From Phaeacidiphilus oryzae TH49 (GTDB lineage: Bacteria; Actinomycetota; Actinomycetes; Streptomycetales; Streptomycetaceae): a stretch of DNA of 64,000 nt. The stretch is from assembly GCF_000744815.1 (NCBI RefSeq), contig NZ_JQMQ01000004.1, positions 124,001-188,000 of the forward strand, read 5' to 3'. Each line of letters starts with the position of its first letter. Position 1 is the stretch's first letter. The notes below the pieces were generated by a model. The model searched no databases. It had not been told where the DNA came from and saw nothing but the letters and a program-made list of their open reading frames with translations. Positions 10,514 through 64,000 of the stretch are shown here, piece by piece. Made by a program: the position numbers and the translations under genes.

Positions 10514-13500
10514 GTGATGCGTCGACTGCGGCGGTGGGCAGCGCTCTTGTCGGTCGTGGCGCTGGTGCTGGTCGGGACCCCCAGTGCGGCGTTCGCCGCA
10601 GCGCATACCCGGGCGCCGCTGAGCGCCGACACCATGCACGGTTCGGGCGGCCATGACTGGTGGGACCCGTTCGGCTGGTTCGGGACCTCGAAACGCCCCG
10701 CGGCGAAGACCACCCAGGTCGGGTGGCACCCGCCGAGCGGCAGAGCGACGACGCATCCGCCGAAGACGGACCCGCACGCCCATCGGACAGCGGAGCTGAC
10801 CTCGCGACGCACCGCGAACACCTCCCTCTACCGGCTGTCGGACGGACGCACCCAGCAGGTCGTCTCCGCCGGCCCGGTGCACTACCGCGACGCCCACGGC
10901 GCCTGGCAGGACATCTCCACCGCGGTGGCCCCCGCCTCGCACGACGGATACTCGCTGGGCGCGGTGCACAACACCTTCCGCACCTACTTCTCCCGCACCC
11001 CCTCTTCGCTGCTGCGCCTTGAGCAGGGCTCCGGCTCTGTGGAGATGGGCGCGCCGGGGGCCAAGTCCGTCGCGCCCAAGGTCGACGGCGACACGGTGAG
11101 TTACCCCGGGGCACTGCCGGGCGGCGCGGGCCTGTCCTACCGTGTCGGCGCGGGCGGGGTGCGTGAGGACATCACCCTCACCCGGGCCCCCGCCCCGGGC
11201 GCGAGCCCGGTCTTCGACTTCACGGTGAAGGCCGACGGGTACCTGCCGGTGCAGCGCAAGGACGGGGCGATCGCCTTCGTCACCCCCGAGGCGCACCAGC
11301 CGGTGTTCGTGATCCCCGCCCCCTACATGAGCGACTCCAGGGCGCAGGCGTCCTCCCCCTACGGCACGGCGTTCTCCGCCAAGGTCTCCCAGGTCATGCG
11401 CTGGGACCCGCGCACCGGGACCGTGCATCTGACGGTGCGTCCTGACGCCTCCTGGCTGCGCTCACCGGCCCGGCAGTACCCGGTGCGGATCGATCCGACG
11501 ATCGTGGACGCCCCGACGCCGTCGACCGCCGCGAACGTGATGATCGGCGCCGACGAGCCGACCACCAACCTCGTCTCCAGCTGGCGGCTGTCGGTCGGCA
11601 CCACGACCACCGGCGCCTCGCGGGCGCTGATCAGGTTCCCGATGCCCGCCCTTCCCTCGGGCACCACGCTGACCTCGGCCTCCCTGAACCTGTACTACGA
11701 CCAGTACTTCACCACCGGGCTGAACAATGTGTCCCTGGAGGCGCATGCGGCCACCGGTGCGTGGGACCCCACCACCGCGACGTGGAACAGCGCCAGCGGC
11801 CTGACCGGGGCACTGGCCGGCTCCGCCACCAAGAAGGCCGGGGTACGAGGAGTGTGGAACTCCTTCCCGGTGACCTCGACGGTGCAGAGCTGGCTGAACG
11901 GCACCACTGCCGACAACGGGTTCGTGGTCAAGGCGAAGGACGAGTCCACCCTCGGTCAGGGCGGCCCGCGGTACGAGGGCAGCATCTACGCCTACTCCGG
12001 CGAGACCGCTAACTACCCGCAGCTCACGCTGACCTACGGCGTCCCCGGCGTGAGCGTGAACCCGCCGACGGTGATCCACGGCACGGGGGCGGAGCTGTCC
12101 TGGCCCGCGTATGCGAACACCACCGGCGACCCGGGCAACGACATCGCCGAGTACCAGGTGTACCGCTGCTGGTACCAGGACTTCCTGCCGTCCCCGAACA
12201 CCGAGATCGCCCCGGTGGCGGCGGGCACCACCAGCTTCACCGACACCACCGCGCAGCCCACGCCGGCGGGGGCGGGCAGCCCGCACGCGTACTACTACAT
12301 GGTCGCGGTCAAGACCAAGAACGGGGCCGTGATCCCCGGTCAGGTGCAGCTGGTGGCGCTGCCCCAGGCGGGCCAGACCACGGTCGTCCAGCGCGGCGGC
12401 GCGGCGACGACCCTGTCCTCGGCCGAGCCCACCACGGTGCTGAACACCCTGAGCGACTCGGGGTTGCAGCAGCCGTGGCTGGAGGTCGGTGACGACTCGG
12501 GGACGTACGGAACCACCCGGGCGGTGGTGAACTTCGGTGCGCTGCCCTCCTCCGTCCCGTCCGGGGCGAAGGTGGTGGACGCGGAGCTGCACCTCTGGGA
12601 GATGGAGACCACCACCGGCAGCAGCGGCGCCTCCTACGAGGTGCACGCGCTGACCCGGCCCTTCACCCAGTCCCAGGCCACCTGGAACAACGCCGCCTCC
12701 TCCACGGCCTGGACCGCGCCCGGAGGCGACATCCAGTCCAGCGCGGACGGCACCCTCTCGGGCTTCACCGACGACCCCAACCGGCGCTCCTTCGACACCA
12801 CCTCGATCGTGCAGTCCTGGATCAACGGGACGGCGGCGAACGACGGCCTGGAGGTGAAGCTGGCCGCCGAGTCCGCCGGCAGCCCCCAGGAGCGCACGAT
12901 CTTCGCGGGGACCGCCACCGCCGAGCCGCGGTTGTCGCCGACCCTGGTGGTCACCTACACCGACCCGTCGGCCGCGGACACCTACTACGCGCCGACCACC
13001 CCGGCCAAGATGGTGCCGGGCAGCACGTACACGGTGCCGGTGACGGTCAACAACACCACCTCGACCGCGTGGTCCGCCTCGAACGAGAAGCTGACCTACC
13101 ACTGGACGCTGCCGGACGGCACGGACGTCACCTCCGCGGGCAACCAGGACACCACGGCCCTCTCCTCGGACCTGGCGCCGGGCGGACAGCAGACCCTGCA
13201 GGCGCAGGTGACGCCGCCCACCCCGAGTGACAACAACGCCAAGGAGGCCTACACCCTCTCCTGGGACATGGAGAACACCTCCACCGGCACCTATCTGTCG
13301 CAGGCCGCCAACGGGGTGGGCTCGCTGGCGCAGGCGGTCCACGTGAACACCGCCGGCAACAACCAGCTGGGCCTGGAGAGCTTCTACCAGTACACGACCA
13401 CCGCGACCGGTGCCGGTTCGGCGCTCTACACCAACGCCTCCTCGGGCAACACGGTGTGGAACTACAACGCCTTCTCCAACCCGTCCCGCGGGTTCGCCAC

Positions 13501-16500
13501 CTTCGCCCGGATGTCCTACAACTCGCTGGACACCACCGACTCCACGACGGGCTTCGGCTGGTCGGTGCAGCTGTCCACGCCGACGCGGCTGGGCACCCCG
13601 CTGGACTTCCATCCCAACCCCAACCCCACCGAGGTGACCTTCACCGACGGTGACGGCACCAGCCACACCTTCAGCTGGGACTCGAGCGCGGGCGTGTGGG
13701 ACGCCCCGGCCGGCGTCCACCTGTACCTCCAGCAGCTGGCCAGTTGCGGGCCGCAGGTGACCAACGCCCGCGCCTGGGTGATGACCAAGCCCGACCGCAC
13801 GCAGTTCTTCTACGACTGCGAGGGCTTCCCGACCTCGGTGGTGGACAGGAACGGCAACGAGACCGACTTCACCTACACCTCGCGGAAGTCGGAGAACAAG
13901 CCGGAGGAGTTCCTCACCTACATCACCGACGCGGCCGGCCGGCAGACCCTGAACGTCGCCTACTTCCAGAAGGGCGACACCTACCAGTACGTCGACTCCA
14001 CCGGAGCGGTGCAGACCGGCACCAATCTGACCGACCCGAACATCATCGACCACGTCAAGTCGGTCACCGACATCTCCGGCCGCACCATCGACTTCCTCTA
14101 CACCAGCAACGGCCTCCTCGCCCAACTGGTCGACGGCGCGGGCAGTACCGCCGCCAAGACGTTCACGTTCTCCTACGACGCCACCCAGGGGATGAAGAAC
14201 GTCAAGCTGGTCAAGGTCACCGACCCGCGCGGGCACCCCACCCAGCTGACCTACTACGACCCGGTCACCGACCCCAAGGTCCACTGGTGGACCGAGTCGG
14301 TCACCGACCGCCGCGGCAAGACCACCGGCTTCGCGTACACCGAGCCCGGAACCGTCACCGGCGCCACCGTCCAGACCACGGTCACCGACGCCAACAGCCA
14401 CGCCTACACCTACCAGTTGGACGGCTACGGCCGGCTGCTGCAGGCCGTGGACCCGCTCGGACGCAAGACCCAGCTCGGCTGGGACGCCGACGACAACGTC
14501 ACGAGCCTGGTGGGGAACAACGGGTCCGAGGCGACCTGGACCTACGACCAGAACACCGGTGACCCGCTCACCTACAAGGACGCCGTAGCGAACCAGAACG
14601 GCACCGCGGCGACGACCTACGGCTACCAGACCTCGCTGGGCGGCCATATCGCCGACCTGACCAGCAAGGTCACCCCGGCCGGGCGGCAGTGGAAGTTCGG
14701 CTACGACGCCGACGGCAACCTGACCAGCGTCCAGAAGCCCGCCGGCGTGGCCGCCGGCTCCGGCTACACCACCGCCTACGGCTACGACTCCCTCGGCGAG
14801 CTGACCTCCGTCACCGACGCGAACCAGCACACCACCCAGTACGCGGACTACGACCCCACCGGCTATCCGAAGACCACCACGGACCCGCTGGGCAACGCCA
14901 CCGCCACGGTCTACGACGTGCGCGGCAACGTCACCTCCACCACGGACCCGTTGCAGCACACCTCGACCTACGGCTACGACACCTTCGGCCGTCCGACGAC
15001 GAAGAAGGTGCCCAAGGACCAGGCGAGCGGGGTGTACATCACCACCCCCGCCCCGGTGTACGACGCCAACGACAACGTCACCCAGTCCACCGCCCCCAAC
15101 GGCGCGGTCACCACGACCTCGTACGACGAGAACGACGAGGTGGCCTCGAAGACGCTGCCGGCCAACAGCTCCGCGTCGACCCCGCCGGCCCGCACCCTCA
15201 CCTACAGCTATGACGACGTGGGGAACCTGACCGCGCAGACCTCGCCGGACGGCAACGTCTCCGGCGCCGCGGCGGGCAGCTACACCACGAAGTTCGGCTA
15301 CGACGCGGACAACGAGAAGACCACCGTCACCGACCCGCTGGGCAACGTCACCACCACCGCCTACGACAACGTCGGCAACGTCGCCGAGACGATCGACCCG
15401 CTCCAGCAGAACACCACCGGCTTCCTGGCCAAGTACGGCTACGACGTGGACCACCGGCGGATCTCCACCACGGACGCGACCGGCGCCGTGGTCAAGACCG
15501 CCTACGACGTGGACGGCCTGAAGTCCTCGACCACGGACGCCAACGGCAACACCACCGAGTACGGCTACGACCAGAACGGCAAGCTGGTCCAGCAGCAGGT
15601 GCCGCACACCACCGACTCTTCCGGGTCGGTCGTCTACGACACCACGCAGTACACCTACGACCAGGTCGGCAACCAGACCTCGGTGATCACCCCGCGCGGC
15701 GTGGCCTCCGGCATCAGCGGCGCCTACACCACCACGACCGCCTACGACGCGGACAACCGCAAGTCGAAGGTCTTCGGCGCGGACAACCCCAACGACTCCA
15801 CCTACGGCACCGCCCCCGAGACCGACTACGCCTACGACCCGGCCGGCCGCCTCCAGCAGGTCACCGCGCCCCCCTCCGGGGGCAGCACCGCCAAGGCGGT
15901 CACCAAGTACTCCTACTTCGACAACGGGTGGACCAAGCAGTCCACCGACCCCTGGTCCATCACCACCTCCTACGACTACGACGCGCTGGGTCTGCAGACC
16001 GCCCGCACCCTGACCTCCGCCGGCGGCTCCTCCTCCCGGACCCAGGCCTGGACCTACTACCCCGACGGCACCCTCGAGTCGCACACCGACAACGGCATCC
16101 CGGTCGGCCTGGACGTCGAGCTGGTCGACGACTCCGACACCCAGAGCACCGCGGCCACCGGAACCTGGAGCTCCTCCAGCGCCGCCGGCACCGGCTACGA
16201 GGGCTACGACTACCAGACCCACGCCGCCGGCTCCGGGACCGACGCCTTCACCTGGAACCTGACCATCCCCGAGGACGGCGACTACACCGTCTACGTCGAG
16301 TACCCCAAGGTGAGCGGCGCGGCCACCAACGCGTCCTACACGATCGACTCCAGCGGCGGCTCGGCGACCAAGACCGCCGACCAGACCGCCAACACCGGGA
16401 CCTGGGTCTCGCTCGGCTCGTACTCCTTCACCCAGAACGGCTCCGGGCAGAAGGTGAGCCTGGCGGAGAACTCCGGCGGCGCCGTCACCGCGGACGCCGT

Positions 16501-18724
16501 CAAGATCGTCCGCGACAACTCGGCGGACACCCAGCCCAAGCCGCAGTCCTTCAGCTACACCTACGACCCCGACGGGCACACCGCCCAGGTCGACGACGCC
16601 TCGCCGAACGCGCAGTACGACACCTACGCCTACACCTGGGACCAGGACGGCCGGGAGAAGCAGCTCCAGGAGGAGGCGTCCGGCGCGGTCAAGCACACCA
16701 CGGCGTTCACCTACAACGCCGACTCCGACGCGCTGACCATGGCGTACGACGCCTCCACGGCCTCCTACAGCTACGACGCGCGCAACCTCCTCACCCAGGC
16801 GGTCAACAAGGAGACCTCCGGGGACACCGGGAAGACCACCGGCTACACCTACACGCCCAGCGGCAAGATCAAGACGGAGACCGAGGGCAACGGAAACGTC
16901 GTCACCTACGGGTACAACCTGGACGACTCCCTGGCCTCCCAGGTCGAGAAGACCTCGGGCGGCACCCTGGTCGCCTCGCACGCCCTGACCTACGACCCCA
17001 ACGGCAACCGCACCAAGGACGTCTCGGTCACCCAGAGCGCCGACGACAGCAGCACCGACCTCAACCGCACCGCCGACTACACCTACACCCCGCGCGACCA
17101 GGTCCAGACCGTCACCAACTCCGACGGCCACGACAACCAGAGCTACACCTACGACCTGGCCGGCAACACCACCTCGCAGACCGTCGGCGGAACCACGACC
17201 ACCAAGGTCTACGACCGCGACCGGCTGCTCTCCGCCACCAGCGGCGGCGTGACCGAGGACTACAACTACGACCCCTTCGGCCGCACCGACACGGTCACCG
17301 CGCTCGGGACCGTCCTCGACCGCTACACCTACGACGGGTTCGACAAGGTCTCCTCGGAGATGAAGGACACCGGCTCCGGCCAGGTGACCACGGACTACAC
17401 CTACGACCCGTTCGGCCGCACCACCTCCCAGACCGCCAACGCCGGCACCAGCGGCGCCAAGACCACCGACTACGAGTACCTGGCCACCTCCAACTCGATG
17501 GTGAGCGAGTCGGTCGGCGGGACGGTCAAGAAGACCTACCAGTACGCGCCGACCGGTGAGCGGCTCGACCAGATCGTCCACAACACCGACGGCACCGAGA
17601 CCCCCAGCTACTACAGCTACGACCCGCACTCCAACGTCCAGGCCATCACCTCGGCCAACGGCGACACCAAGGCCACCTACGGGTACACCGCCTACGGCCA
17701 GGACGACACCAGCCAGGACACCGGCGTCGACAAGAACACCGGCTCCGGCGCCACCGGCACCACCGCGGCCGACCCGTACAACGTCTACCGGTACAACGCC
17801 GACCGGATCGACGGCACCACCGGCAACTACGACATGGGGTTCCGGAACTACGCCCCGAACCTCAACAGCTTCCTCACCCGCGACATGTACGAGGGAGCGC
17901 TCGCCGACACGGCGATGACCACCGACCCCTACACCGGCAACCGCTACGCCTTCGCCGCGGGCAACCCCGTCTCCAACATCGAGCTGGACGGCCACTCCTG
18001 GTGGAACCCGGTCTCCTGGTCCAGCGACACCTGGAAGAACATCGGCGCGGGCGCCCTCATGGGCGCGGCCGTGGTGGGCACCGTCGCGTGTGTCATCGCT
18101 GAACCCTGCGGCGCCGGTGAACTCGCCATCGCCGGCGGCGGAGCGCTGGCGGCCGGCGGCGGGGTCAGCATCGGCTCGGCCGCGGCCGGCGGGGCGGCCG
18201 CCGGCGGCCTGTGGGGCCTGCTGTACTCGGTCGCGACCGGCGGGACCTCGGGCGGCGGCTCCTCGGGCGGAGGCGGGGGCGGCTCCTCCTCCGGAGGGAA
18301 CAACCTGCGCACCCCGCGGGTGGGCGACACGGACAACGGCCCGGGCGAGTGGGTCCAGGTGAACCGCGGCGGCGGCAGCAACAGCTCCTGGGAGTACCAG
18401 GAGAAGGTCACCGGCGTCACCCGCGATCGCGAGTACGAGATCGACGGCGTGCAGGTGGACGGCTGGGACAGCCAGAGCCAGACCATCCTGGAGGCCAAGG
18501 ACCAGTACGCGCAGTTCGTCAAGGACGGCCAGTTCAAGTCCTGGTGGCAGGGCAAGACGGCGCTGCTGAACGAGGCCAAGAGCCAGATCGCCGTCGCTCA
18601 GAAATACGGCCTCAACCTGCGCTGGACCTCGGCCAGCCAGGACTTCGTGGACGCCATGAAGAACCTCCTTCAGACGAACAACGTGGCCGGGAGGAACATG
18701 ATTGACTGGGTTGTGAAGCCCTAG
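10514..18724 (+). CDS. Secreted RHS/YD-repeat polymorphic toxin with nuclease tip
   Basis: A 2736-residue secreted protein. Domains in order: a signal peptide ending near AAFAAAH (about residues 1-30); two DNRLRE-like beta domains (about 340-510 and 630-815); many YD/RHS repeats (GYDxxG, TYDxxGN; about 1100-2400) interrupted by a golvesin-C-like domain (about 1865-2005, EDGDYTVYVEYPK); the RHS core motif DPYTGNRYAFAAGNPVSNIELDG (about 2470-2495); a Gly/Ala-rich hydrophobic stretch and Gly-Ser linker; and a C-terminal toxin domain from about 2595. The tip (YEIDGVQVDGWDS, ILEAKDQYAQFV, WWQGK) matches Tox-REase-5-like nucleases, with a D...ExK-type active site. Such shells encapsulate the toxin and release it into competitors. 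GTG 10514 sits six bases after GAAGGG; ATG 10517 is possible. Confidence 0.92.
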   Translation: MMRRLRRWAALLSVVALVLVGTPSAAFAAAHTRAPLSADTMHGSGGHDWWDPFGWFGTSKRPAAKTTQVGWHPPSGRATTHPPKTDPHAHRTAELTSRRTANTSLYRLSDGRTQQVVSAGPVHYRDAHGAWQDISTAVAPASHDGYSLGAVHNTFRTYFSRTPSSLLRLEQGSGSVEMGAPGAKSVAPKVDGDTVSYPGALPGGAGLSYRVGAGGVREDITLTRAPAPGASPVFDFTVKADGYLPVQRKDGAIAFVTPEAHQPVFVIPAPYMSDSRAQASSPYGTAFSAKVSQVMRWDPRTGTVHLTVRPDASWLRSPARQYPVRIDPTIVDAPTPSTAANVMIGADEPTTNLVSSWRLSVGTTTTGASRALIRFPMPALPSGTTLTSASLNLYYDQYFTTGLNNVSLEAHAATGAWDPTTATWNSASGLTGALAGSATKKAGVRGVWNSFPVTSTVQSWLNGTTADNGFVVKAKDESTLGQGGPRYEGSIYAYSGETANYPQLTLTYGVPGVSVNPPTVIHGTGAELSWPAYANTTGDPGNDIAEYQVYRCWYQDFLPSPNTEIAPVAAGTTSFTDTTAQPTPAGAGSPHAYYYMVAVKTKNGAVIPGQVQLVALPQAGQTTVVQRGGAATTLSSAEPTTVLNTLSDSGLQQPWLEVGDDSGTYGTTRAVVNFGALPSSVPSGAKVVDAELHLWEMETTTGSSGASYEVHALTRPFTQSQATWNNAASSTAWTAPGGDIQSSADGTLSGFTDDPNRRSFDTTSIVQSWINGTAANDGLEVKLAAESAGSPQERTIFAGTATAEPRLSPTLVVTYTDPSAADTYYAPTTPAKMVPGSTYTVPVTVNNTTSTAWSASNEKLTYHWTLPDGTDVTSAGNQDTTALSSDLAPGGQQTLQAQVTPPTPSDNNAKEAYTLSWDMENTSTGTYLSQAANGVGSLAQAVHVNTAGNNQLGLESFYQYTTTATGAGSALYTNASSGNTVWNYNAFSNPSRGFATFARMSYNSLDTTDSTTGFGWSVQLSTPTRLGTPLDFHPNPNPTEVTFTDGDGTSHTFSWDSSAGVWDAPAGVHLYLQQLASCGPQVTNARAWVMTKPDRTQFFYDCEGFPTSVVDRNGNETDFTYTSRKSENKPEEFLTYITDAAGRQTLNVAYFQKGDTYQYVDSTGAVQTGTNLTDPNIIDHVKSVTDISGRTIDFLYTSNGLLAQLVDGAGSTAAKTFTFSYDATQGMKNVKLVKVTDPRGHPTQLTYYDPVTDPKVHWWTESVTDRRGKTTGFAYTEPGTVTGATVQTTVTDANSHAYTYQLDGYGRLLQAVDPLGRKTQLGWDADDNVTSLVGNNGSEATWTYDQNTGDPLTYKDAVANQNGTAATTYGYQTSLGGHIADLTSKVTPAGRQWKFGYDADGNLTSVQKPAGVAAGSGYTTAYGYDSLGELTSVTDANQHTTQYADYDPTGYPKTTTDPLGNATATVYDVRGNVTSTTDPLQHTSTYGYDTFGRPTTKKVPKDQASGVYITTPAPVYDANDNVTQSTAPNGAVTTTSYDENDEVASKTLPANSSASTPPARTLTYSYDDVGNLTAQTSPDGNVSGAAAGSYTTKFGYDADNEKTTVTDPLGNVTTTAYDNVGNVAETIDPLQQNTTGFLAKYGYDVDHRRISTTDATGAVVKTAYDVDGLKSSTTDANGNTTEYGYDQNGKLVQQQVPHTTDSSGSVVYDTTQYTYDQVGNQTSVITPRGVASGISGAYTTTTAYDADNRKSKVFGADNPNDSTYGTAPETDYAYDPAGRLQQVTAPPSGGSTAKAVTKYSYFDNGWTKQSTDPWSITTSYDYDALGLQTARTLTSAGGSSSRTQAWTYYPDGTLESHTDNGIPVGLDVELVDDSDTQSTAATGTWSSSSAAGTGYEGYDYQTHAAGSGTDAFTWNLTIPEDGDYTVYVEYPKVSGAATNASYTIDSSGGSATKTADQTANTGTWVSLGSYSFTQNGSGQKVSLAENSGGAVTADAVKIVRDNSADTQPKPQSFSYTYDPDGHTAQVDDASPNAQYDTYAYTWDQDGREKQLQEEASGAVKHTTAFTYNADSDALTMAYDASTASYSYDARNLLTQAVNKETSGDTGKTTGYTYTPSGKIKTETEGNGNVVTYGYNLDDSLASQVEKTSGGTLVASHALTYDPNGNRTKDVSVTQSADDSSTDLNRTADYTYTPRDQVQTVTNSDGHDNQSYTYDLAGNTTSQTVGGTTTTKVYDRDRLLSATSGGVTEDYNYDPFGRTDTVTALGTVLDRYTYDGFDKVSSEMKDTGSGQVTTDYTYDPFGRTTSQTANAGTSGAKTTDYEYLATSNSMVSESVGGTVKKTYQYAPTGERLDQIVHNTDGTETPSYYSYDPHSNVQAITSANGDTKATYGYTAYGQDDTSQDTGVDKNTGSGATGTTAADPYNVYRYNADRIDGTTGNYDMGFRNYAPNLNSFLTRDMYEGALADTAMTTDPYTGNRYAFAAGNPVSNIELDGHSWWNPVSWSSDTWKNIGAGALMGAAVVGTVACVIAEPCGAGELAIAGGGALAAGGGVSIGSAAAGGAAAGGLWGLLYSVATGGTSGGGSSGGGGGGSSSGGNNLRTPRVGDTDNGPGEWVQVNRGGGSNSSWEYQEKVTGVTRDREYEIDGVQVDGWDSQSQTILEAKDQYAQFVKDGQFKSWWQGKTALLNEAKSQIAVAQKYGLNLRWTSASQDFVDAMKNLLQTNNVAGRNMIDWVVKP

Positions 18725-36005: not shown

Positions 36006-37340
36006 ATGCGCGCGGAGGCGGAACGGGTCGATCTGCTGGTCATCGGAGCGGGAATGGCGGGACTGACCGCGGCGGCCCGCGCCGTCAGGGCCGGGCTGAG
36101 CGTGGCGGTCGCCGAGGTCGGTCCGGATGTCGGCGGCTCCGCCCGGTTCGCGGGCTACGCTTGGACGGCCCCGAGCCACGAGGTGATGGACCGGCAGAAT
36201 CCGCGCGGGGACACCGCGCTCAAGCGGGCGCTGGTGGACCGGTTCGACGCGGGCATCGCCTGGATCCGCTCGATCGGGGTGGAGGCCAAGGACGCCCAGC
36301 CCATTCTGGGCTTCGGCCGGGGCCATCAGTTCGACACCAATCACTATGCGGACACCTGCCGCCGGCTGGTCCTGGAGGGCGGCGGCGAACTGCTGCTGGA
36401 GACGGAGACCGAGCGGCTGCTCGTCGAGGGCGGCGCGGTGGTCGGTGCAGAGCTCTGCTCGGCCGGCGGCGGTCGGCGGAGGATTTCGGCCGGCGCCACC
36501 CTTCTGGCGACCGGCGGCTTCCAGGGCGACCTCGGCCTCCGCACCGAGCACGTCCACCCGTACGCCGACCGGATGCGGCTGCGCGCCAACCCGCACAGCC
36601 GGGGCGCCGGTTACCGACTCGCCACGGCGGCGGGCGCGGCCGCCGGCCCGGCCGACGCCGGCTTCTACGGCCATCTCGTGCCGACCGGCATCCCCTTCGC
36701 CGACCCCGTCGACTTCGTCGATCTGACGCTCTACTACAGCGAGCACGCCCTGCTGCTCAACCTCCGCAACGAGCGGTTCACCGACGAGACGCTGGGCGAC
36801 CACCTCACCGCGATGGCCCTGCTCGACCAGCCGGAGAGCCGAGGCCTGCTGATCGCCGACGCCCGGGTATTCCGCGACTGGATCGGCGGCTCCTACGTGG
36901 AGGGCGCCGTGGCCGTGGACAAGTTCGCCCTGGCGAGCAAGCGCGGCGGCCGGGTCGGGCTGGCCGAGGACCTGGACGAGCTCGCCTGGCTGCCCGAGGA
37001 GTGGGGCTACCGCGGGGAGGCGGTCCGGGACGCCGTCCGGCGGTTCAACAAGCAGGCGGCGGGCAGCGGTTCTCTCACCCCCGGCCGCGAGTTCGACCGG
37101 CTCCCGCTCGACGAGCCGCCGTACTACGTGATCGAGACTGAGCCGGCGATCACCTTCCCGTTCCACGGAGTGCGCATCGACGACCGGGCGCGGGCGCTCG
37201 GTGCGGACGGGCGGCCGATCCCCGGCCTTCTCGCGGCCGGCTCCGACACGGGTGGGCTCTGGCACCGGGCGTACGCGGGCGGCCTCGCCTCCGCCCTGGT
37301 CTTCGGGCTGACCGCGGCGGCGAGCGCCGCCGAACTCTGA
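36006..37340 (+). CDS. FAD-dependent oxidoreductase, KstD/fumarate-reductase-like
   Basis: A 444-residue flavoprotein of the 3-ketosteroid-dehydrogenase/fumarate-reductase-flavoprotein superfamily. The FAD motif is DLLVIGAGMAGLTAAARA, followed by VGGSARFAGY, the NPHSRGAGYRLATAAGA segment and the C-terminal LLAAGSDTGGLWHRAYAGGLASALVFG. It is shorter than typical KstD proteins (about 510-570 residues), so a different ring substrate is likely. It probably desaturates or reduces a cyclic enone. GAAGGGAG precedes ATG 36006; it is 17 bases from the acyl-CoA dehydrogenase and heads a three-gene operon. Confidence 0.84.
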   Translation: MRAEAERVDLLVIGAGMAGLTAAARAVRAGLSVAVAEVGPDVGGSARFAGYAWTAPSHEVMDRQNPRGDTALKRALVDRFDAGIAWIRSIGVEAKDAQPILGFGRGHQFDTNHYADTCRRLVLEGGGELLLETETERLLVEGGAVVGAELCSAGGGRRRISAGATLLATGGFQGDLGLRTEHVHPYADRMRLRANPHSRGAGYRLATAAGAAAGPADAGFYGHLVPTGIPFADPVDFVDLTLYYSEHALLLNLRNERFTDETLGDHLTAMALLDQPESRGLLIADARVFRDWIGGSYVEGAVAVDKFALASKRGGRVGLAEDLDELAWLPEEWGYRGEAVRDAVRRFNKQAAGSGSLTPGREFDRLPLDEPPYYVIETEPAITFPFHGVRIDDRARALGADGRPIPGLLAAGSDTGGLWHRAYAGGLASALVFGLTAAASAAEL

Positions 37341-60193: not shown

Positions 60194-60973
60194 ATGAGGG
60201 ATCGGCTGTCCGGGCGGGTCGCGCTGGTGACCGGTGCCACCGGCGGTATCGGGGAGGCAGTGGTGCGACGGCTGGCGGCCGAGGGCGCCGCGGTGGCGGT
60301 GACCGACCTGAACGCCGGACGTTGCGAGGCACTGGCGAAGGAACTCGCGGACGGCGGCGGTGCCGCGCAGGCGATCGGCCTGGCGCTGGACGTCGCCGAC
60401 GAGCGGGCCTGGCGCGCGGCCGTGGACCGGGTGGTGGCCGAACTGGGCGGCCTGACCATACTGGTGAACAACGCCGGCATCGCTGAGACGCGGACAGTGG
60501 AGACGGAGACCCGGGAATCCTGGGACGAGGTCATCGCCGTCACCCAGACCGGGGTGTGGCTCGGGATGAAGTACGGTGGCCCGGCGATCGAGCGCTCGGC
60601 GGGGAAGGTCGAGGGCGGCGGCTCAATAGTCAACATCGCCTCGATCTTCGGCACGGTCGGCGGCTTCGGCAGCCAGTTCTCCTACCACGCGGCGAAGGGC
60701 GCCGTGCGGCTGATGACGAAGAACGCCGCACTGCACTGGGCACAGCGTGGGGTCCGGGTCAACTCGATCCACCCGGGATTCATCGAGACAGCCCACTCGC
60801 GCCGGCTGTGGCGGGGCACCCCCCGGCACTCCGCGATGGTCGAGGGCACCCCGATGGGCAGACTGGGCACCCCAGAGGAGGTCGCGGGAGCGGTGGCCTT
60901 TCTCGCGTCATCGGACGCGAGCTTTGCGACGGGCTCCGAGCTCTACGTCGACGGAGGCTGGACGGCTCGCTGA
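60194..60973 (+). CDS. SDR-family oxidoreductase
   Basis: A 259-residue classical SDR with TGATGGIGEAVVRRLAAEG, NNAGIAETRTVE, IVNIASIFGTVG, catalytic YHAAKGAVRLMTKNA and HPGFIETAHSRRLWRG. VTDLNAGR with Asp after the second strand predicts NAD(H). It resembles cyclopentanol or 3-alpha-hydroxysteroid dehydrogenases. AAGGAGGG precedes ATG 60194. It is the last recognisable gene of the catabolic cluster. Confidence 0.88.
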   Translation: MRDRLSGRVALVTGATGGIGEAVVRRLAAEGAAVAVTDLNAGRCEALAKELADGGGAAQAIGLALDVADERAWRAAVDRVVAELGGLTILVNNAGIAETRTVETETRESWDEVIAVTQTGVWLGMKYGGPAIERSAGKVEGGGSIVNIASIFGTVGGFGSQFSYHAAKGAVRLMTKNAALHWAQRGVRVNSIHPGFIETAHSRRLWRGTPRHSAMVEGTPMGRLGTPEEVAGAVAFLASSDASFATGSELYVDGGWTAR

Positions 60974-61234: not shown

Positions 61235-61305
61235 CTAGCCCATCTCCTCCAGTGCCTTGCCCTTCGTCTCCTTGACGAAGAAGTGATACCTGCGGTTTCT
61301 GGCCT
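61235..61305 (-). pseudogene. C-terminal fragment of a sugar-porter MFS protein
   Basis: In the gene-poor stretch 60974-61612 the minus strand reads ATTKTQARNRRYHFFVKETK then GKALEEMG and a TAG. This is the typical end of a sugar-porter transporter (FVPETKGxTLEEM). An in-frame stop lies just upstream, so only the last 23 residues survive. Nothing else convincing is seen in 60974-61612. Confidence 0.5.
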
Positions 61306-61612
61306 GCGTCTTCGTGGTCGCTTAACGCGTTGACCAGCGGAGGAGAAGTCAGCGGCTGTCACCATTCGTCAACGCTGATCCACCTTGCACGGCCCAGAGA
61401 CGGCCCGAGTGCCCCCGACGAGATCACTCTCGGCGACCGGTTTCCCAACGCGCGGGATCCGGTCCCCACCCTGTTGAGTCAGTCCGTATGATTGGTTTTC
61501 CTACCACCCGCTGCGCCCAGCTTCGGGAGCACACCATCGCGTGTGCGTGAGCATCCTTTGATCTCGGGTGGACTTCGCTAGGGCGGCTTTGTGCTGCCCG
61601 GAGGTTCACCAC

Positions 61613-61816
61613 GTGTTGACGTCGTTGCTGCTTCTGGTTGGATGCTTGGGCCTGTTCGCTTGGCGCATAGCCCCCCTCGGGCGTGAACTGAGTCGGCTGC
61701 TCATCGGCAGGAAGGCACTGTCCAAGTGCCGGCAGGCTGACATCCCCGCGGTCATCGAAGCGCTCGGGTTCGAGAGTCGTTCGCCCTGGGCTGGCAAGCG
61801 CACCGATAGGCTGTAA
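61613..61816 (+). CDS. Small membrane protein running into a tRNA fragment
   Basis: A 67-residue protein with one membrane helix (LTSLLLLVGCLGLFAWRIAP, residues 2-21) and a basic cytoplasmic tail (LGRELSRLLIGRKALSKCRQ). GTG 61613 has GGAGG eight bases upstream. Its last codons (TDRL) and TAA stop are supplied by the start of the tRNA-Tyr fragment, so the reading frame was probably truncated or re-ended by the integration event there. No family is recognised. Confidence 0.5.
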   Translation: MLTSLLLLVGCLGLFAWRIAPLGRELSRLLIGRKALSKCRQADIPAVIEALGFESRSPWAGKRTDRL

Positions 61817-61862
61817 ATCTGTCGGCTTACGCCTACGCAGGTTTGAACCCTGCACCCGCCAC
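61811..61862 (+). other. 3' half of a tRNA-Tyr(GTA) gene, probable att site
   Basis: The sequence runs from the anticodon loop (CTGTAAA) through a long variable arm (GGCTTACGCC) and a perfect T arm (GCAGG-TTTGAAC-CCTGC) to the acceptor strand ACCCGCC-A. The matching 5' half, which would need GGCGGGT and a D arm, is absent upstream. Such 3' tRNA pieces are duplicated when integrative elements insert into tRNA genes. tRNA-Tyr is the known SLP1 site in Streptomyces. The element would lie on the left side of this fragment. Confidence 0.72.
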
Positions 61863-61869
61863 AGCAAGG

Positions 61870-61910
61870 CCAAGGGCCCTTGACCAGCACAAAAGGTCAA
61901 GGGCCCTTGG
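61870..61910 (+). terminator. Perfect 16-bp terminator hairpin
   Basis: CCAAGGGCCCTTGACC (61870-61885) pairs exactly with 61895-61910 around a 9-base loop (AGCACAAAA). It follows the tRNA-Tyr fragment by 8 bases and is probably the original tRNA terminator. Confidence 0.82.
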
Positions 61911-62048
61911 TATGTCGATCGTCCGTGAGTGGCCGTGGCTTTCCGTGAATTACCGCCCGTTGGGGCACGCGGGGGGCACGCCGAGACGTCGACCTCTTAG
62001 GTGGTCCGGTTCGAGCCTGATGGATACGAGAGCCGGATGCGGGTGCGG

Positions 62049-62342
62049 CTACACGTGATTCTTGAGCCAGTCATTCCCCGAGGGCTTCAGGCCGGCGGAC
62101 GCCCAGTCCATGCCCGTGACCTCCATGACGAGCAGCTTGTCATCCTGGTCGATGTGCTGCTTGAGCTTGTCGCGGATGGCGCCCGCGGCCTGAGTGCTCT
62201 GGATGAACCACGTGGAGTCCAGGTTGTGCCACCACCGCCCGCCCGAAAGGCTCTTGATCGCCTCGTGGAGGGACGTGTAGTTCTGACCGGGCTGGTCCAG
62301 GTCGTAGCCGATCATGTGCGTCTTGTACGGCAAGGTGCTCAT
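62049..62342 (-). CDS. Stand-alone Cas2/VapD-like small protein
   Basis: A 97-residue ferredoxin-like protein: THMIGYDLDQPGQNYTSLHE, then LSGGRWWHNLDSTWFIQSTQ and DDKLLVMEVTGMDWASAGLK. The YDLxxPxQxY start, central WWHxxDSTW and DDKLLV motifs are typical of a small family related by fold to Cas2 and VapD-like nucleases and often annotated SinR-like. No CRISPR array or other cas gene is nearby. AAGGAG directly abuts ATG 62342, an unusually short spacing. It lies next to the tRNA-Tyr border and is probably a mobile accessory gene. Confidence 0.7.
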   Translation of the reverse strand: MSTLPYKTHMIGYDLDQPGQNYTSLHEAIKSLSGGRWWHNLDSTWFIQSTQAAGAIRDKLKQHIDQDDKLLVMEVTGMDWASAGLKPSGNDWLKNHV

Positions 62343-62670
62343 CTCCTTCTGGGACGAGCACCCCGATGGACGCAGGCTTGGGTAAGTCCACGTCTCGCAG
62401 TAGGGTCGCAGGGCGGTAGCAACGCACTGGCCCCCGCCGGGGTGCTCGATCTCAACTCGAAGCCCCGGTGTGGGGCCTTCGTCTTCGAACGGAAAAAGTA
62501 GAGCACCACGTATGGCCCATGGGCAAATCCCTAACCACAACATGTGGTACGTGTACATCCGCATGGGCACAACATCTTGTGATCGCCTCTGACGTGGCGT
62601 CAAATCTTTCAGTCTAGCGGGCTGTTCCGACAATCGGCCCTGAGCTGGGCGAATGCCGCACCTTCCGCCG

Positions 62671-62822
62671 TCTGCCATCCCGTCTGCCGTCGACCCACAC
62701 GCAGTGGTATCGGGCGTGGCCTTCCCGGTCCAGATGGAGCGCGCCACTGTACGAACGATCTGGACCGGGAAGGCCACGGCTGATACGGCTTGTCCTGGGT
62801 CGTCGGCAGGCGGGATGGCAGA
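62671..62822. mobile_element. 152-bp inverted-repeat (MITE-like) element
   Basis: Two 65-base arms, 62671-62735 and 62758-62822, are inverted copies with about ten mismatches; the inner 20 bases (62716-62735 with 62758-62777) pair perfectly around a 22-base loop. Because the arms are copies, similar frames appear on both strands, but no real gene is present. Length and structure suggest a miniature inverted-repeat element or a large transcript hairpin. No flanking target duplication was seen. It occupies part of the 834-base gap 62343-63176, where no gene is recognised. Confidence 0.65.
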
Positions 62823-63176
62823 CACCCCACCCCTGACCACTGATCGACGGTCACGTGTGCACGATCTTGGCCATCCTGGAGCCGGAGATCCCCGCCGGAG
62901 GCATCCCAATCGCCGGCCCGCGGGGTCGGGCTCTACCTTCATGCCCTCGGGCCTATCCAGCGGGCGGGCGTAGGCCGGCGGCGCGCCGAGCGGGCCGAAG
63001 GCAGGAGCGCGGGCGCGCCAAGAGGCCGTGAGCCCGCCCGGCGGAGCGTAGCGACGCCGGGTGCCTTGATGAAGCAGAGAAACTCTAATCCAACCGGTTG
63101 AGGAGCCTCCGCTCATCGAGAGCTTGACTGATCCTGGCCTGGGCCGTTGTGCAACGGATGGCTTACGGTGGACCGC

Positions 63177-63737
63177 ATGTCCTCTGACCTGGATGCGCCG
63201 AGCGCTGCGGCTGAACTCGCCGAGTCGTTGTTGCCCCCGCTCGGAGACCGCTGGTTGCACACGCAGGCTGTGGCACGGCGTGCACAGGAGATCGCAACTG
63301 CGGTACCTAAGGAAGATCGGGACCTGCTGGTGTCGGCGGCCTGGCTACATGATCTGGGCTACGCGGCCGAGCTACGGCGGACAGGCTTCCATCCCCTCGA
63401 TGGCGCGCGGCATCTGGAGTCGCTCGGTGCCCCTGAGCGCCTGGTCCGCCTCGTGGCCCATCATTCAGGAGCCGAGTACGAGGCTGCACAACGCGGATTG
63501 ACGGCTGAGCTGGCAGCGTACGCGCGTGAGGATGGGCCGGTCCTCGATGCGTTGATCTGGGCAGATATGACGACGGGGCCGGCCGGCCAGTCATTCGACT
63601 TCGACCAGAGGATGGACGAGATCCTGACACGGTACGAGCCGGGGAGCGAGGTGCACACCGCCATCTCGAAGGCTCGTCCCTATCTCGGTGCTGCGATCGC
63701 TCGCGCGCAAGAGCGGATGTTGCCTCAGCCGATGTAG
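63177..63737 (+). CDS. HD-domain protein (putative phosphohydrolase)
   Basis: A 186-residue HD-domain protein. The metal-binding HD pair is in LLVSAAWLHDLGYAAEL, with an upstream His in RWLHTQAVARRA and later LVAHHSGAEYEA, ALIWADMTTGPAG. This is the layout of YqeK/MJ0835-type HD phosphohydrolases. ATG 63177 was chosen; GTG three codons earlier is an alternative and the ribosome site is weak. Its stop overlaps the convergent Nudix gene by 13 bases. A decayed partial copy lies at 27154-27346. Confidence 0.82.
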   Translation: MSSDLDAPSAAAELAESLLPPLGDRWLHTQAVARRAQEIATAVPKEDRDLLVSAAWLHDLGYAAELRRTGFHPLDGARHLESLGAPERLVRLVAHHSGAEYEAAQRGLTAELAAYAREDGPVLDALIWADMTTGPAGQSFDFDQRMDEILTRYEPGSEVHTAISKARPYLGAAIARAQERMLPQPM

Positions 63738-64000
63738 GGGTGGTCCCGCCTGGTCAGGCCGTGTTCGATGCGCAGTCGCATGGACGGATGGATGTTGAGC
63801 TGGTCCAGCTTGTCCGGGTGGACGAACGCTACTTCCTTCGTCTCGCTGCTCGTGCGCAGTTGACCACCGGTTACCCGGGTGGTGAAGCAGATCGAGAACT
63901 GCTGACGGACCTCGCCGTCGTCGTACTTCATGACGTGGTGGGGGTTCGTGTAGATCCCCACGAGACCGGTGACCTCGACGTCGATGCCGGTCTCTTCCTT
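63725..64000 (-). CDS. Nudix hydrolase, partial
   Basis: The C-terminal 91 residues are in the window; the gene continues past the right edge. It begins with the end of a Nudix box (KEETGIDVEVTGLVGIYTNP) followed by GEVRQQFSICFTTRVTGGQL, ETKEVAFVHPDKLDQL and RLRIEHGL. This is typical of ADP-ribose/NTP-type Nudix enzymes. It is convergent with the HD gene and overlaps its end by 13 bases, so the two are probably not co-expressed but may share a house-cleaning role. Confidence 0.85.
   Translation of the reverse strand, partial: KEETGIDVEVTGLVGIYTNPHHVMKYDDGEVRQQFSICFTTRVTGGQLRTSSETKEVAFVHPDKLDQLNIHPSMRLRIEHGLTRRDHPYIG

Follow-up and report, generated by a model that had tools for sequence, protein, structure and literature searches.

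A putative half attachment site of tRNA-Tyr type inside an AICE of Phaeacidiphilus oryzae integrated at a sugar-porter gene

We analysed a stretch of 64,000 nucleotides from Phaeacidiphilus oryzae TH49 (the window, to which positions refer unless a contig is named), which corresponds to C4:124001-188000 on an 894-kb contig (C4) of the 7.8-Mb genome. Near its right edge a catabolic gene cluster, whose last gene ends at 60973, is followed by an AICE (actinomycete integrative and conjugative element) of ~11.4 kb that spans window position 61237 to C4:196614. The ends of this AICE are set by a 48-bp direct repeat that is 100% identical between the two ends and occurs in only two copies genome-wide. 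The left att core (61237-61284) duplicates the 3' end of a sugar-porter gene and encodes only the last residues, FFVKETKGKALEEMG, while the right copy (C4:196567-196614, beyond the window) supplies the last codons that complete the conserved sugar-porter MFS gene, just after the tyrosine integrase, which ends at C4:196431. The end of this gene is conserved in the family, probably Streptomycetaceae by the named relatives of the integrase, with 238 of 249 genomes matching the joined query; when an empty site was sought in these relatives, none of the 249 genomes shared the left flank. An arm-type repeat of the resident integrase, ACGGCCCAGAGACGGCCC, lies on the forward strand at 61389-61406; its 18 bp recur identically on the right, beside the stop codon of the integrase, and arms resembling it flank AICEs with related integrases. 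Because the AICE ends are the 48-bp repeats, a fragment of tRNA-Tyr located ~575 bp inside the left end is internal to the element. An earlier note, made from the letters of the window, had proposed an island extending leftward from this fragment and carrying the catabolic cluster. The AICE runs rightward from 61237, beginning to the left of the fragment, and the cluster lies outside it. Elsewhere in the window, a 2736-aa protein encoded at 10514-18724 is RHS/YD-repeat-like by reading of the protein, and ARAGORN reports a tRNA-Val(gac) at 36181-36262 within coding sequence of the catabolic cluster, a call that is probably false because the genome-wide Rfam search for tRNAs gave none on C4.

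The gene content between the two 48-bp copies is that of a RepSA-type AICE. It combines a tyrosine integrase (PF00589) and direct-repeat att sites at both ends with an FtsK/SpoIIIE-type transfer protein (PF01580, E 2.5e-26) and a replication initiator of a known AICE type (NF041486 RepSA, 749 bits against a cut-off of 700), together with an SCO3933-family regulator, DUF2637 and an excisionase-like Xis. This inventory, including the terminal position of the integrase, is shared with pSAM2 and other RepSA-type AICEs, from which the C4 element differs in sitting at a sugar-porter gene instead of a tRNA gene and in containing an unrelated half attP. The left end includes a region common to other AICEs (62651-63092), 85% identical to the genome's own tRNA-Pro AICE and 71-75% to AICEs at three further loci (L127, L098 and L103). 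Within this region, at 62670-62823, we observed a 154-bp imperfect inverted repeat (77%) that is kept in other AICEs and is possibly a replication or transfer signal. An HD-domain protein (63147-63737, forward strand; PF01966, E 8e-8) is carried as cargo, and the window closes on the start of a reverse-strand gene (63725-64000, part of C4:187725-188195) that is Nudix-like by reading of the protein, with no family match. Past this gene the backbone continues to C4:196614 with FtsK, DUF2637, RepSA, Xis and Int.

The integration site of the resident integrase is in a protein gene, at the sugar-porter 3' end, and not in tRNA-Tyr. In 110 loci with related integrases (58-70% identity, the resident one included and a few with little downstream sequence), the 900 bp downstream contain no intact tRNA. 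Most of the related integrases abut the 3' end of one conserved glutamine-synthetase-like gene and some that of a nusG-like gene, both named by reading the protein ends, and no convincing internal tRNA half, such as distinguishes the C4 AICE, was found at the loci of these non-tRNA integrases. The AICE tyrosine-integrase sub-family of pSLS has been reported as the exception to tRNA integration (Ghinet et al. 2011, PMC3218068); the C4 AICE resembles that sub-family only in its non-tRNA target, a protein-gene 3' end.

The internal fragment comprises 52 bases (61811-61862) that form the anticodon-to-acceptor, or 3', half of tRNA-Tyr. The 5' half is absent, and ARAGORN finds no complete tRNA at these positions. 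The only other genomic copy is an intact tRNA-Tyr on another contig (C5:4189900-4189982; E = 3.9e-34 over 108 bp). The alignment with the C5 locus extends over 61808-61980 (173 bp, 83%), reaching past the terminator, and the core is 96% identical over 78 bp. On the forward strand, the tRNA-Tyr 3' half (61808-61862), a probable vestigial attP core, is followed by a terminator hairpin (61869-61911), whose counterpart in the alignment is the hairpin following the C5 tRNA-Tyr. Its stem (61869-61885 with 61895-61911) has 17 perfect pairs, with a fold of -37.8 kcal/mol and z = -6.4. Since TATGTCG without a T run follows it on the 3' side, the hairpin is a stem-loop terminator without a U-tract. The similarity to tRNA-Tyr and its hairpin is confirmed to lie far beyond chance, and the earlier description of a half tRNA-Tyr followed by a perfect hairpin was thus borne out, at 61811-61911. 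Upstream, a possible forward-strand ORF of 82 aa (61568-61816) ends inside the tRNA core; it has no clear relatives and may not be a gene.

Downstream of the core, a P' arm pair, GGGCACGCGGGGGGCACG, lies on the forward strand at 61963-61980, 100 bp after the core, and is the sole such GGGCACG pair in the 64-kb window. At occupied tRNA-Tyr sites the spacing after the core is 99-102 bp, and a pair at this distance is found at several other tRNA-Tyr loci and at the C5 copy. Element-free loci (for example L009, L016, L021, L024 and L028) have tRNA-Tyr and its terminator followed by DNA without a GGCACG pair. Pairs resembling GGGCACG also occur beside a tRNA-Arg-targeting integrase, so that the integrase type cannot be read from the pair by itself; the argument for the tRNA-Tyr type is its fixed position after a tRNA-Tyr core. 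An attP carries arm sites on both sides of its core, and beside the fragment we found the P' arm and no P arm. From its sequence, therefore, the fragment has the layout of half an attP, consisting of tRNA core, terminator and P' pair.

A genuine tRNA-Tyr AICE in another genome (locus L043, genome G006) was used for comparison; tRNA-Tyr is also the integration site of SLP1. L043 has the same backbone as the C4 AICE, with 58-75% protein identity. Its integrase ends just 5' of the core, core and integrase lie on one strand, and a second (P) arm is located at -103/-92. What the C4 fragment shares with such SLP1-like elements is the tRNA-Tyr 3' half, the terminator, the P' spacing and the orientation relative to the backbone, which is that of the L043 core. 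It differs in having no Tyr-type integrase, no P arm and no second tRNA-Tyr copy at the far end of the AICE: no integrase domain was found near the fragment, the nearest being the resident Int ~10 kb rightward, and the copies of the 3' half are the internal one and the intact gene on the other contig, not one at each AICE end.

These comparisons bear on two readings of the fragment. The first, put forward in the earlier note, is that of an integration scar, the distal end of an island reaching left to an intact tRNA-Tyr and including the catabolic cluster. Such a scar would indeed look like this, a tRNA 3' end displaced together with its terminator, and a second copy of the segment, whose absence had been named as evidence against it, exists at C5:4189900. 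That copy belongs to the only intact tRNA-Tyr, which is on another contig and unrelated to this site, a finding that had likewise been named as counting against a scar; the integrase expected to the left is on the right, at a protein gene, as are the transfer genes. An AICE end lies to the left of the fragment, where the 48-bp boundary repeats contradict a scar, and a P' arm follows the fragment. We therefore regard this reading as scarcely credible. What stands of it is that a mobile element is present and that the fragment is DNA for site-specific integration akin to that of tRNA-Tyr elements; it is not an island edge. We also considered the fragment as the far end of the AICE itself, which is excluded by the 48-bp repeat outside it. 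Among the tRNA-targeting AICEs that were surveyed, it is the tRNA beside int that serves as att.

The second reading is that core and P' arm were kept as an additional attachment site serving the Tyr integrase of another element, so that elements stack here or the AICE docks at tRNA-Tyr. The 96% identity of the core and the intact P' spacing are consistent with this, and tRNA remnants can be integration sites (conclusion of Ghinet et al. 2011, PMC3218068). Set against it are the lack of a P arm, the lack of an adjoining Tyr integrase and the lack of any intact pair of Tyr att sites on C4, and we consider a site kept in this way to be very improbable.

The fragment is carried on an extra segment of ~1.25 kb (61409-62650) that is absent from three related AICEs. 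In L127 the arm is separated from the conserved left-end region by 34 bp, where the P. oryzae AICE has the extra ~1.25 kb, and L113 and L122 are likewise shorter there by more than 1.1 kb. The G+C content of the segment is about 62%, compared with 69% for the AICE. On its reverse strand the segment encodes a 97-aa phrog_1090 protein of unknown function (62049-62342; E 1.1e-23) with distant relatives on plasmids; a plasmid search with the DNA around the fragment gave no match. Homology to the genome's tRNA-Pro AICE starts at 62651 and homology to L127, L098 and L103 at 62668-62672. This second AICE of the genome (L242, C5:3770000-3789900) is at tRNA-Pro(cgg). The two elements are 85-96% identical at the DNA level in the left end, DUF2637 and RepSA; at the protein level RepSA is 87% identical and FtsK only 60%, and no match to the C4 integrase was found in the tRNA-Pro AICE. 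On this patchwork of identities, AICEs have exchanged modules.

The absence of the segment from L127, L113 and L122 and its lower G+C are also compatible with passive capture, which is the main rival explanation. The tRNA-Tyr half, the P' arm and the phrog_1090 gene would then have entered the AICE as cargo, for example when a tRNA-Tyr element was excised imprecisely or a tandem array was resolved, and the AICE itself would never have used tRNA-Tyr. In the family, tRNA-Tyr is commonly occupied by tandem arrays, and the C5 tRNA-Tyr has a P' arm that no element follows, pointing to a tRNA-Tyr element that was once resident. We observed at that locus (L006:9985-10102) an integrase-type arm pair 100 bp downstream, but neither an integrase nor a second att copy, which suggests the decay of an earlier tRNA-Tyr element; just after the tRNA, at L006:10362-11110, is a gene pair that is toxin-antitoxin-like by reading of the proteins. 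We consider capture of a tRNA-Tyr element end possible, though rather doubtful: the place and orientation of the relic are those expected of a Tyr attP after an exchange on the integrase side, and this is the case in two AICEs of different genera.

The second of these AICEs, in genome G011, belongs to another genus and is an independent case. It is bounded by a 100-bp repeat at tRNA-Arg(cct). Internally, between its left att and the backbone, a tRNA-Tyr core is followed by a terminator and a P' pair, ordered and oriented as in C4, and these lie 195 kb from a tRNA-Tyr that lacks the pair. It differs from the C4 AICE in its integrase and target, and its relic is ~3.6 kb inside the left end, compared with ~0.6 kb. 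A candidate further case in genome G036 has a tRNA-Arg integrase nearby, and no second att was found there. Among 80 AICE loci chosen by integrase there was no convincing internal tRNA half, some left ends being beyond reach, and among 40 chosen by FtsK there was one; the pattern is rare. A third such relic may exist in a further genome (L250, G104:C1:1673800-1693700), where an AICE at tRNA-Gly(tcc) contains a tRNA-Gly(ccc) 3' half ~0.8 kb from its left end.

The reading that we favour, with a probability of roughly 0.6, is that the fragment is the vestigial half attP of a tRNA-Tyr (SLP1-like) module, left behind when the integration module of a RepSA-type AICE was replaced. The ancestor, or a recombination partner, would have had a Tyr-type integrase beside an attP made up of the tRNA-Tyr 3' half, terminator and arms on both sides. 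Integrase, excisionase and attP would then have been swapped for a module whose integrase uses the sugar-porter gene 3' end, leaving the old core and P' arm ~575 bp inside the new left end, with the old integrase and P arm lost. Replacement is supported by the 48-bp boundary repeats and the arm repeats, which enclose a full set of AICE genes, by the conservation of the target gene end, and by a P' pair placed after the core as at occupied, and unlike unoccupied, tRNA-Tyr sites. It is further supported by the match in backbone and orientation to L043, in which the P arm missing from the C4 fragment is present, by the extra segment relative to L127, L113 and L122, by the mosaic relation to the tRNA-Pro AICE and by the G011 case. 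Against it, an insertion would account for the ~1.25-kb segment just as well. FtsK gives a flat tree signal (55-62% to many elements), so that protein comparison does not show descent of the backbone from a tRNA-Tyr lineage. No relative with the C4 backbone and both modules was found, and the rarity of such relics also counts against replacement. The AICE ends, the location of the fragment inside them, its attP-like layout at a fixed spacing, the loss of the P arm and of a Tyr integrase, and the mosaic composition are established; that the event was replacement instead of passive capture, and that the relic is inactive, we infer.

There is also a small chance that the relic is a working second site, by which the AICE docks at tRNA-Tyr through a foreign integrase and at the sugar-porter gene through its own, or by which Tyr elements stack within it. 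In that case internal relics with an intact P' arm in two genera would be the product of selection, not debris. That AICEs exchange integrases has been inferred by comparing elements, and a fossil attP inside one of them would directly record its former target. Caution is also called for in tRNA-based island mapping, which relies on a tRNA 3' half as the mark of an island edge, because such a half can lie elsewhere.
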